This document shows, one piece after another, positions 26,631 through 60,944 of a stretch of DNA of 64,000 nt (its first letter is position 1; every line of letters begins with the position of its first letter). Below the pieces are notes generated by a model. That model worked only from the letters and a program-made list of their open reading frames with translations. It made no database searches and was not told where the DNA came from. Origin of the DNA: Chitinophagaceae bacterium (GTDB lineage: Bacteria; Bacteroidota; Bacteroidia; Chitinophagales; Chitinophagaceae); assembly GCA_947455605.1 (NCBI GenBank), contig CANGOX010000005.1:1-64000 (forward strand), written 5' to 3'. A program made the position numbers and the translations under genes.

Positions 26631-26755
26631 TTTTTAATTAAAAATTAGAAATTAATAATTAAAAATTGAAAGAGTATAACCTTTCAATAAGCTAAAGAAA
26701 TTACAGTCAGCACATCTGTAATTTTTAATTTCTAATTCTTAATTTTTAATTCCAG
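26631..26755. repeat. Inverted pair of 7-base AT-rich repeat arms between accD and smpB
   Basis: Left arm (26631-26670) reads AAAAATT, AGAAATT, AATAATT, AAAAATT. Right arm (26715-26755), read on the other strand, reads AAAAATT, AAGAATT, AGAAATT, AAAAATT. A 44-base loop with no obvious content separates them. The right arm ends eight bases before the smpB ATG. The words match those flanking the four-helix-bundle gene at 59611. Confidence 0.88.
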
Positions 26756-58511: not shown

Positions 58512-59516
58512 ATGTCAGTTAAGGAAAATTCTAGCAATATGCCCAGGACAACATCCAGTTTAGAACAATTAGCAATCGGTATCGATATCGGCGGTACCGG
58601 AACCAAATTCGGTATTGTAGACAGGCTAGGCAACCTTCTTTTTTCAAGCGAAATGTCTACCCGCAAACACAAAGAGGTAGAAAGTTTTATAGACGAGTTG
58701 CATGCCAACCTTGTTCCGATGCTGGAACAGGCAGGTGGTATCGGAAGGATCAAAGGAATTGGAGTAGGAGCCCCTAATGGAAATTATTATACAGGTACAG
58801 TTGAATATGCCCCTAATCTTCCCTGGAAAGGGATCCTGCCTTTGGCAAAAATGTTTGAAGATAAATTCAAGCTTCCTGTTGTACTAACCAATGATGCCAA
58901 TGCGGCTGCTTTGGGAGAGATGATGTATGGTGCAGCAAAGGATATGAAAGACTTTATACTGATTGCGCTCGGTACCGGCGTAGGCAGCGGCATAGTAGCC
59001 AATGGTAAACTGATCTATGGACACGATGGATTTGCCGGCGAACTCGGCCACACCATCATCATACCCGATGGCCGCATGCATGCGGGCACCGGTAAAAAAG
59101 GTTCCCTCGAAAGCTATGCATCAGCCACCGGTGTGAGAGCCACAGCCATTGAATTATTGGCCAACAGCAAAACACCCAGCTTGCTGAGAAAAGTGCCCAA
59201 TGAAGAAATGGACTCTAAAAAAGTATATGAAGCTGCTGTTGAAGGCGATGAACTGGCTAAAGAAATATTTGAATTTACAGGAAAGATTTTGGGAATGGCT
59301 CTTGCCAATTTTGTTATGTTCTCAAGTCCGGAAGCGATCATTTTGTTTGGCGGACTAACCAAGGCGGGAGAGTTAATTCTCAAACCTACCAGAGAACATA
59401 TGGAAGCAAACCTGATCCAGGTATTTCAGAACAAAGTAAAAATATTAGTGAGCCATTTGAAAGAATCTGATGCAGCGATACTTGGAGCTAGTGCATTAGT
59501 ATGGGAGCTGAAATAG
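58512..59516 (+). CDS. ROK family sugar kinase (glucokinase-like) lacking the zinc cysteines
   Basis: A 334-residue ROK kinase, probably phosphorylating glucose. The ATP phosphate loop GIDIGGTGTKFGIVD starts near residue 24. The catalytic region has VLTNDANAAALGEMMYG and the next phosphate loop LGTGVGSGIV. The ROK signature ELGHTII keeps its zinc-ligand His. The CxCGxxGCxE zinc motif is replaced by AGTGKKGSLE, so all three cysteines are missing. This loss is known in polyphosphate-type and some other ROK glucokinases. The enzyme should feed imported hexose into metabolism next to glycogen genes. Confidence 0.92.
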   Translation: MSVKENSSNMPRTTSSLEQLAIGIDIGGTGTKFGIVDRLGNLLFSSEMSTRKHKEVESFIDELHANLVPMLEQAGGIGRIKGIGVGAPNGNYYTGTVEYAPNLPWKGILPLAKMFEDKFKLPVVLTNDANAAALGEMMYGAAKDMKDFILIALGTGVGSGIVANGKLIYGHDGFAGELGHTIIIPDGRMHAGTGKKGSLESYASATGVRATAIELLANSKTPSLLRKVPNEEMDSKKVYEAAVEGDELAKEIFEFTGKILGMALANFVMFSSPEAIILFGGLTKAGELILKPTREHMEANLIQVFQNKVKILVSHLKESDAAILGASALVWELK

Positions 59517-59552
59517 TAATTAATAATTAAAAATTAAGAATTAAAAATTAGG
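59517..59552. repeat. Left 7-base repeat arm flanking the four-helix-bundle gene
   Basis: Reads AATAATT, AAAAATT, AAGAATT, AAAAATT immediately after the kinase stop. It pairs with the arm at 59979-60008 on the far side of 59611-59964. Same words as 26631-26755. Confidence 0.9.
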
Positions 59553-59577
59553 TATTTATACGCTATTTTGATAAAAA

Positions 59578-59604
59578 GGGATTTGCTAGTTTGTAGCAAA
59601 TCCC
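59578..59604 (+). terminator. Rho-independent terminator between the ROK kinase and the four-helix-bundle gene
   Basis: GGGATTTGC (59578-59586) pairs with GCAAATCCC (59596-59604), flanked by AAAAA and TTTTTT. The U-run ends exactly at the ATG of 59611, so the downstream gene has no ribosome-binding site of its own. Confidence 0.85.
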
Positions 59605-59610
59605 TTTTTT

Positions 59611-59964
59611 ATGAAGCAGGATAACATCATTCTTAACAAAAGCTATCTTTTCGCTTTGCGCGTTGTAAAACTGTTTCGTTATCTGTCTAACGAAAAGAAG
59701 GAATACCATCTATCCAAACAACTCATCCGTTCAGGCACATCAATTGGAGCCAATGTTGAAGAAGCCATGGGAGGGTCTTCCAGAAATGATTTTAAAGCAA
59801 AGTTAGACATTGCTCATAAAGAAGCCAGAGAAACCCGGTTCTGGCTAAAACTAATACGGGATAGCAGCATCTTAGAACCTAAGGCAGCCAATTCAATGAT
59901 AGAAGATTGTGAAGAAATAATACGTATACTCGCCACCATCCTCAAAACACTTAAGCAGGTATAA
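59611..59964 (+). CDS. Four-helix-bundle protein of the 23S rRNA intervening-sequence (IVP/S23) family
   Basis: A 117-residue helical protein. Family marks are KSYLFALRVVKLFRYL at the start, LSKQLIRSGTSIGANVEEAMGGSSRNDF in the centre and a Glu/Ala-rich third helix (ETRFWLKLIRDS). It has the same fold as the Avd accessory protein of diversity-generating retroelements. In some bacteria such proteins lie inside 23S rRNA spacers, but here it lies between protein genes, flanked by inverted 7-base repeats. No reverse transcriptase is nearby. Function is not established. Confidence 0.88.
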   Translation: MKQDNIILNKSYLFALRVVKLFRYLSNEKKEYHLSKQLIRSGTSIGANVEEAMGGSSRNDFKAKLDIAHKEARETRFWLKLIRDSSILEPKAANSMIEDCEEIIRILATILKTLKQV

Positions 59965-59978
59965 CCTCTCCGGCTGCC

Positions 59979-60008
59979 AATTTTTAATTTTTAATTCTTA
60001 ATTAAAAA
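59979..60008. repeat. Right 7-base repeat arm flanking the four-helix-bundle gene
   Basis: On the other strand it reads TTTTTAATT, AAGAATT, AAAAATT, AAAAATT, inverse to 59517-59552. It overlaps the end of 59991-60944, so the last codons of that gene are repeat sequence. Confidence 0.9.
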
Positions 60009-60944
60009 CACCGCCGGCACCGCTCTCTCTCCTTCCTTATCACTCGGCGTAATGGTTTGTTTTCCATTGATGAGTAAACAACTGCTTCCTCCTCCGTCTA
60101 AATTCAATGCTTCTATGCAACCTGCCTGTTTCAGCATTTGTGCTTCCTGGGTAAGTGTAGCTCCTTCAGCCTTTCCAGGAAAACGGCCTTCGATGATGAG
60201 GAATATCAATTTACCATCTGCTGTATAACCCATAGCAGAACGGGGATGTTTATCGTTGATGGCTTTACCTGCAAATTTGATCTCTTCATTATTGGTGATC
60301 TGTATCTCTCCATTCTGAATTAACACAGGGCCACCGCCTACCGCTGTCTGCATTTTCCATTTTCTGAAATCTCCTTTTGCCACCATGTCTTTTTCAGTAT
60401 GTTTTGCAACGGAATCTTTAAAGTAATTGATCACTTTTTGTGTAGCATAAATATTTGCATCCGATGTATCTGTATATAACCAGGCCACATCTGCTTTTCT
60501 TTTTTTATCAATGCCAATAGCACTTCCAAATGTATGTTTAAACGTTAGCGTGTCTTTTCCTTTTCCGGCAAGCGTGTGTAACTGGTAAGCCTGTAAGTTT
60601 CCGTCTTTGATCACTACATTCAGATTACTGTTATGAACAAACTCAAAAAATGTGGTGTTCATTACTAATAAGGGCTTCTGCTCCTGTGCATAATATTGAT
60701 CCGGCGTATATCTTTTACCATTGCCAACCTGTGTTGTAAAACTGAGTGACTTATCTTTTAATTCGGCACTAACATAGTAAGCAATATTGGGTTTCCCTTC
60801 CGTAAGATCATGGGTCATATATACATGCACAGATGCGGGCAACGGCTGAAAAAGAGAATCCACATTTTTCCAGTTCCATTGCGCATGTACAGAAGAAGTG
60901 GTTATGAGGGTTACAAGAATGTGTAAGCAGGTTGTTTTTCTCAT
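59991..60944 (-). CDS. Phosphodiester glycosidase (NAGPA domain) exported protein
   Basis: A 317-residue exported protein with a signal peptide ending near SVHAQ. The NAGPA-type domain shows VMNTTFFEF, TAVGGGPVLIQNGE, HPRSAMGYTADGKLIFL and CIEALNLDGGGSSCLL, the hallmark pattern of phosphodiester glycosidases (uncovering enzyme-like). It should cleave a GlcNAc-type phosphodiester from surface or cell-wall material. The last four codons (LIKN) and the stop lie in a repeat arm, so the C-terminus may have been altered by the repeat. Confidence 0.86.
   Translation of the reverse strand: MRKTTCLHILVTLITTSSVHAQWNWKNVDSLFQPLPASVHVYMTHDLTEGKPNIAYYVSAELKDKSLSFTTQVGNGKRYTPDQYYAQEQKPLLVMNTTFFEFVHNSNLNVVIKDGNLQAYQLHTLAGKGKDTLTFKHTFGSAIGIDKKRKADVAWLYTDTSDANIYATQKVINYFKDSVAKHTEKDMVAKGDFRKWKMQTAVGGGPVLIQNGEIQITNNEEIKFAGKAINDKHPRSAMGYTADGKLIFLIIEGRFPGKAEGATLTQEAQMLKQAGCIEALNLDGGGSSCLLINGKQTITPSDKEGERAVPAVFLIKN

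Follow-up and report, generated by a model that had tools for sequence, protein, structure and literature searches.

What is a gene for an S23 (IVP) family protein doing between two protein-coding genes, enclosed by inverted arrays of a 7-nt word? The locus lies in what we call the window, the whole 64,000-nt stretch analyzed here (contig CANGOX010000005.1, positions 1 to 64,000), and it has a ROK-type gene on one side and a convergent gene on the other; it is not within a 23S rRNA gene (Table 1). Structures of S23/IVP proteins have been solved, and we know of no function or enzyme activity for them. We consider it probable, though by no means assured, that the gene and its arms form a REPIN-like element whose S23 protein recognizes its own word and aids the dispersal of hairpins built from that word.

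Table 1 Features of the S23 locus and ORF-less hairpins of the window, in window coordinates
Feature	Position	Strand	Remark
ROK-type gene	58512-59516		upstream neighbor of the S23 element
5′ arm, tandem word AATTAAN, period 7	59517..59549	+	begins directly after the stop codon of the upstream ROK-type gene
Palindrome GTATTTATAC	59552..59561	.	59 nt 5′ of the S23 ATG; same motif precedes dprA and comEC
Terminator-type hairpin, T-run ending at the S23 ATG	59573..59610	+	also in orthologues L342 and L343
S23/IVP gene, 117 aa, predicted four-helix bundle	59611..59964	+	PF05635, TIGR02436
3′ arm, inverse of the 5′ arm	59979..60003	-	overlaps the end of the convergent gene
Convergent gene	59991-60944		downstream of the S23 element
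ORF-less hairpin, word of S23 locus L014	20181..20270	.	
ORF-less hairpin, word AATTAAN of the window S23 gene	26636..26751	.	before smpB
ORF-less hairpin, word of S23 locus L008	33775..33860	.	
ORF-less hairpin, word of S23 locus L013	35806..35918	.	
ORF-less hairpin, word of S23 locus L014	43176..43249	.	

A first-pass annotation, made from the letters alone, had described inverse arms around a complete S23-family gene, a terminator T-run abutting its ATG, the same word in a hairpin with no ORF, and a fold shared with the Avd protein of diversity-generating retroelements; all four descriptions stand. The arms are mutually inverse at 92% over 26 nt and enclose one complete ORF (59611-59964), the T-run closes a hairpin with a 16-bp perfect stem (59573-59609; z -4.7 against mononucleotide shuffles), and the ORF-less hairpin has its arms at 26636-26667 and 26720-26751. 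In profile searches the protein matches PF05635 with 93.2 bits (cut-off 33.8, E=1.5e-26) and TIGR02436 with 106 bits (cut-off 24, E=1.1e-30); PF05635 is its sole match in Pfam, with no hit to a transposase family. Its AF2 model (pLDDT 94.7) resembles S23 structure 2RLD at TM 0.85–0.90 with 46% identity, S23 structure 2GSC at TM about 0.7, and Avd (4DWL, 8UB8) at TM about 0.7–0.8 with E-values of 0.05–0.2, and the modeled structure is a four-helix bundle with the Avd/IVP fold. Same-site orthologues in two other Chitinophagaceae records, at 85% and 73% identity, have retained arms, palindrome, T-run hairpin and protein alike. Since pN is 0.09–0.17 and pS 0.70–0.79 in comparisons with these orthologues, the window gene is under purifying selection.

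Bracketing by arms extends to every S23 gene of the genome to which the window belongs (G000; 4.1 Mb, 99.4% complete). All 15 of its PF05635 genes lie between inverted arms of short, imperfect tandem words of 7–9 nt, with another word at each gene (AATTAAN, CGTGAGT, GGAGTCT, GTTTGGG, GAATGATA, GTACGAA and others) and no word shared between any two (best pair score 17 over 105 pairs). An inverted flank score of at least 22 was reached by 15 of 15 S23 genes vs 5 of 271 control ORFs; three of the high-scoring controls (in L020, L032 and L028) have an ORF-less hairpin of this type next to them. The window locus itself scores 22, a value that the five controls also reach; taken singly it makes a moderate case against chance, and S23 genes as a class make a decisive one.

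S23 genes are present in 87 of 117 genomes of the family Chitinophagaceae, with a maximum of 16 per genome. We compared 145 S23 loci, namely the 15 of G000 and 130 elsewhere, the latter being among the best-scoring matches listed and not a random draw. Bracketing above chance, which the first-pass annotation had proposed looking for around S23 genes of related genomes, is seen in this set: the own flank pair lies above the 95% quantile of mismatched flanks at 105 loci and above the 99% quantile at 65, the own flank is the best among 145 possible partners at 50 loci, and 40 of the 145 fall below the 95% quantile. Among the 111 clear-armed loci, the arm period is 7 in 77, 8 in 26, 9 in 4 and some other value in 4, the outer length of the element ranges from 407 to 753 bp (median 488 bp), and the 5′ arms have a C content of only 10%. 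The S23 frame holds a stop at 3 of the 145 loci (L014, L063 and L111). A literature search covering titles and abstract beginnings of open PMC papers found no paper linking S23 genes with short-period arms. Separately, a different small ORF, not S23, is enclosed at L022:3217-3803 by inverted arms whose word is that of S23 locus L006.

The T-run hairpin has a narrower distribution. It ends exactly at the S23 ATG in the window, at L008 and at L009 (3 of the 15 own loci), as well as in the two orthologues (L342 and L343), where, judged by eye, the stem letters differ and pairing is retained. We rejected it as a general S23 trait, since it passed both criteria at three of the 15 G000 loci and at none of the 130 from other genomes.

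Comparison with other genomes of the genus, of which only 3 of 21 (one draw) have any S23 match, yielded empty sites. At the orthologous sites of thiL and agmatine deiminase, arms and gene are absent in four of four congeners each (G010, G011, G017 and G107), at recQ in two of two, at pyrB in three of four, the fourth slice being short of the junction, and at deoC in two of four, the other two showing another neighborhood and a GTGAAGA array. At the sdhB, hypD, fabD and nitronate-monooxygenase sites no arms were seen in the slices obtained, some of which are short of the junction or have other neighbors (L069 and L075 are short of the junction; L073 and L080 end at the stop codon). At the site of the window element itself, the two neighbor genes meet closely in G017, G011 and G008, G006 and G010 have another downstream gene, and G107 has a GTGAAGA hairpin; the ORF-less hairpin at 26636-26751 is absent from the smpB site in six of six congeners. 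Because a uniform whole-locus scan found a periodic inverted pair at 1 of 42 orthologous congener loci (the G107 hairpin) vs 15 of 15 S23 loci of G000, we take arms plus gene to be one insertion of about 490 bp, its junctions being approximate at the distance of these congeners. Arms and gene are absent together, and the flanks are not kept where the gene is missing. Elements with a AAGTCGGAA-type word (L001, L115, L127, L160 and L188) occur in several genera beside related neighboring genes and represent an old or recurrent insertion site; the L001 element is missing from the four congeners examined.

The words of S23 genes also occur with no gene between the arms. In the window, five ORF-less hairpins use words that belong to four different S23 genes. 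In 457 kb of G000 (20 stretches, five of them picked to include S23 loci) there are 43 periodic inverted pairs vs 1 after plain reversal, and 36 of the 43 have no S23 gene; when the five S23-picked stretches are removed, 29 ORF-less hairpins are left in about 364 kb by hand count. Twenty-eight of the 36 score at least 30 against one of the 15 resident arms; some of the 36 are neighbors (four in L032, two in L027), so that not all are independent. Random sets of 15 foreign arms, drawn from 96 of the 130 other loci, matched 1.4 +/- 1.3 hairpins (maximum 6 in 5000 draws). Eleven of the 15 G000 S23 genes have an ORF-less partner in the sample and 4 do not, and 8 of the 36 hairpins match no resident arm, five of these being of a CTGCG type that resembles classical REPs. 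Internal sequence of the element was not seen in the ORF-less hairpins by eye. Four other genomes with 12–14 S23 genes each (G024, G047, G103 and G088) have 4 periodic pairs in 400 kb, and six S23-free genomes have 1 in 356 kb. An S23 gene alone therefore does not yield a word family, and simple S23-driven dispersal has its main counterevidence in how few ORF-less copies the other S23-rich genomes contain. The earlier suggestion of an autonomous element with an ORF-less derivative, as with transposons and MITEs, stands in part: there is one insertion, and there are hairpins with resident S23 words, but the fixed terminal repeat of transposons and MITEs is missing. We accordingly rejected a single transposon family with fixed ends, as the 15 S23 genes have no common terminal repeat and the word differs at each.

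Words of this kind are private to single genomes. Congener G107 has GTGAAGA arrays at two sites and a single S23 gene, for which GTGAAGA arms were predicted before its flanks were inspected; the prediction held, with (GTGAAGA)x10 right after the upstream stop codon and TCTTCAC words downstream. Counting overlapping matches inside arrays, GTGAAGAGTGAAGA has 159+168 matches in G107 (327) and 0 in 11 other genomes of the genus including G000, and the GTTTGG word of L004 has 43+64 in G000 and 0 in 11 other genomes of the genus. Eighteen of 20 GTGAAGA places fetched in G107 qualify as arrays, mostly between long open frames and several starting right after one.

Whether word and protein travel together was assessed among the 111 loci with an arm score of at least 30. 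Over all pairs, word and protein similarity are uncorrelated (rho 0.03, permutation sd 0.03); with this Mantel test nil we rejected a global correlation and kept only a restricted statement on close proteins. Among pairs of close S23 proteins (at least 120 bits) from different genomes and with unrelated neighbors, 34 of 163 have a common word, compared with 4.0 +/- 2.0 under permutation (maximum 16 in 5000). Similar words also accompany distant S23 proteins in 45 pairs, and the word is therefore no strict label of the protein. With the single window protein as query, relatives from Pirellulaceae (57% identity) and Cloacimonetes (55%) were found to have AATTAAN-type arms beside quite different neighbor genes. 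The arms around a Hymenobacter relative (59%) are built of the related word AATTATG and score lower, and those around a Chitinophagales relative (51%) form no more than a weak pair. The S23 clade of the window protein keeps arms of AATTAAN type at other positions, in records from two further phyla; the taxon labels carry risk because most of the records are metagenome bins.

We propose that the S23 gene acts together with its pair of inverted short-period arms as one intergenic element, which often begins right after an upstream stop codon. Each S23 lineage would be tied to its own word, dispersed in some genomes as ORF-less hairpins or arrays, in a pairing that resembles that of RAYT genes with REPINs. 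The S23 protein would recognize its word when folded into a hairpin, be it in RNA or in single-stranded DNA, and would help copies of the hairpin enter new intergenic sites; dispersal is most likely driven by the S23 protein itself. The arms may also fold in the transcript, so that the element could be excised from polycistronic RNA in the way that RNase III removes intervening sequences (IVS) from 23S rRNA; this would allow the element to sit within operons.

Among other explanations, the best surviving, which we nonetheless judge unlikely, is that the hairpins came first, spread by an unknown host or element machinery, with S23 genes as passengers that landed in or were captured by them. That S23 has no known enzyme activity, that the four other S23-rich genomes have few ORF-less copies and that distant S23 proteins can have similar words would all fit such a history, as would a DUF-type gene and GxxExxY genes that likewise lie between short-period arms. 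Random landing, however, should repeatedly hit large word families, and no word is common to two of the 15 S23 genes; arms are present at S23 loci of genomes without ORF-less copies, and in two other phyla the window protein has relatives whose arms are still of AATTAAN type.

Somewhat less credible still is a role in host RNA processing or regulation, in which the arms would be transcript hairpins (RNase III sites or mRNA stabilizers), the S23 protein a domesticated RNA-binding protein, and the copies spread by recombination and kept by selection. The position after stop codons, moderate fold energies (z -2.4 and -2.2), purifying selection on the window gene and the Coxiella burnetii 23S rRNA IVS with S23p, which has a 28-bp terminal stem and 428–444 nt and is cut by RNase III (PMC4990558), are consistent with such a role. 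Against it, each word is confined to one genome and has no match in the congeners searched, and with an arm pair missing at 41 of 42 orthologous loci there is no sign of a conserved function of the site.

A Y1 (RAYT-type) transposase is very improbable as the mover of the hairpins, which would then be REPINs with an incidental link to S23. The single Y1 gene of G000 does lie between inverted repeats, and there are hairpins in G000 that resemble classical REPs, but the repeat of that Y1 gene differs; G107 combines its 327 GTGAAGA matches with no PF01797 match, so that a Y1/RAYT mover is not supported there, and G047, G024, G103 and G088 have 2–4 Y1 genes each and few hairpins. Reverse transcription by a resident enzyme likewise found no support in G000, where PF00078 has no match. 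Chance inverted repeats in AT-rich spacers can be dismissed, for although the window arms are almost all A/T and their score is equaled by 5 of 271 controls, the other 14 G000 S23 loci have different, often G-containing words, and the comparison with control ORFs (15 of 15 S23 genes bracketed), the reversed-sequence null (one periodic pair) and the congener-locus scan exclude it.

The S23 elements resemble several known systems in part. According to PMC4990558, 23S rRNA IVS likewise have an S23 ORF inside inverted arms able to form a stem, are of similar size (428–444 nt, compared with our median of 488 bp) and have been proposed to be of mobile origin, and their functionality and origin are called unclear. 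Unlike the IVS described there, the elements reported here lie between protein-coding genes, number up to 16 per genome, have arms of gene-specific 7–9 nt words, and are accompanied by ORF-less word families. With RAYT/REPIN systems (PMC3116915) they share a single-copy gene whose flanking repeat has copies dispersed through the genome, intergenic inverted doublets that contain no ORF, and differing repeat types with differing genes; unlike those systems, the S23 protein is a predicted four-helix bundle without HUH/Y1 transposase, and the arms are tandem words (GTGAAGA, GGAGTCT) rather than the imperfect palindromes of REPs. Avd has the fold predicted for the S23 protein but low sequence identity to it, and no reverse transcriptase gene was found in G000. 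The TAACTGA repeats of Beggiatoaceae (PMC4679880) are also heptamer arrays between genes with a patchy distribution and a mechanism given as not known; unlike the arms here they are nearly all direct, and the terms S23 and four helix are absent from that text. We file the locus as an S23 element working like REPINs because it fails a defining test both of IVS and of RAYT/REPIN systems.

If this REPIN-like reading is true, the IVS of 23S rRNA would be S23 elements that chanced to land in an rRNA gene, and the S23 family would gain its first function. The pairing of S23 lineage and word makes S23 function and IVS origin accessible to binding and dispersal experiments. It may also explain similar word-like repeats between genes, and it suggests that mobile DNA can operate without a recognizable transposase.

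A further feature of the G000 elements is the palindrome GTATWWATAC. Of the 15 S23 genes, 8 have it in the 200 nt upstream (9 if one substitution is allowed), compared with 0 of the 130 S23 loci of other genomes. The pattern has 46 places in G000, of which 35 were examined and 5 further ones are known as S23 sites; many are due to chance, since the reversed control pattern has 32. It precedes dprA (+72), comEC (+62), a yifB/comM-type gene (+156) and a Y1 transposase gene (+53), as well as three GxxExxY (PDDEXK_3) genes, a GIY-YIG gene and ORF6N genes, and other sites are inside reading frames. The loci concerned are L239, L253, L241, L247, L250, L255, L268, L260 and L242; a second ORF6N gene (L269) was named by eye, and L256, Y1-like by eye only, has no Pfam match. 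In congeners the palindrome precedes dprA of G010, G011 and G006 (and of G017 with one change) and comEC of G011 and G017, and it is absent before dprA of G107 and G008 and before comEC of G010, G107 and G008. Eight G000 S23 genes therefore share a motif with the DNA-uptake genes of the genus. Given its absence from the 130 other loci and its position before dprA or comEC in some congeners, we rejected the palindrome as a part of all S23 elements. From its placement we infer a candidate operator responding to competence, and the genes behind it possibly constitute a DNA-uptake regulon that includes many small nuclease-like genes. With the operator at 8 of 15 S23 genes, expression, and perhaps mobilization, would coincide with competence and incoming single-stranded DNA. 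The fullest version of this model, which we put forward tentatively and regard as less likely than not to hold in all its parts, is that S23 proteins are word-specific, nucleic-acid-binding dispersers of short-period hairpins that have no transposase domain and, in this genus, are switched on with the DNA-uptake machinery.

Several of the genes behind the palindrome have repeats of their own. Two of the GxxExxY genes (L250 and L255) lie between inverted short words (CATAGGGT; AAAGGCAC), the GIY-YIG gene (L260) between inverted copies of the REP-like sequence GTCATTGCGAGGA, and the Y1 gene (L247) between inverted GAGCGTGG palindromes, and at L253 an array of CCTTGATTCTTG, the word of S23 locus L015, stands directly before the putative comEC operator.
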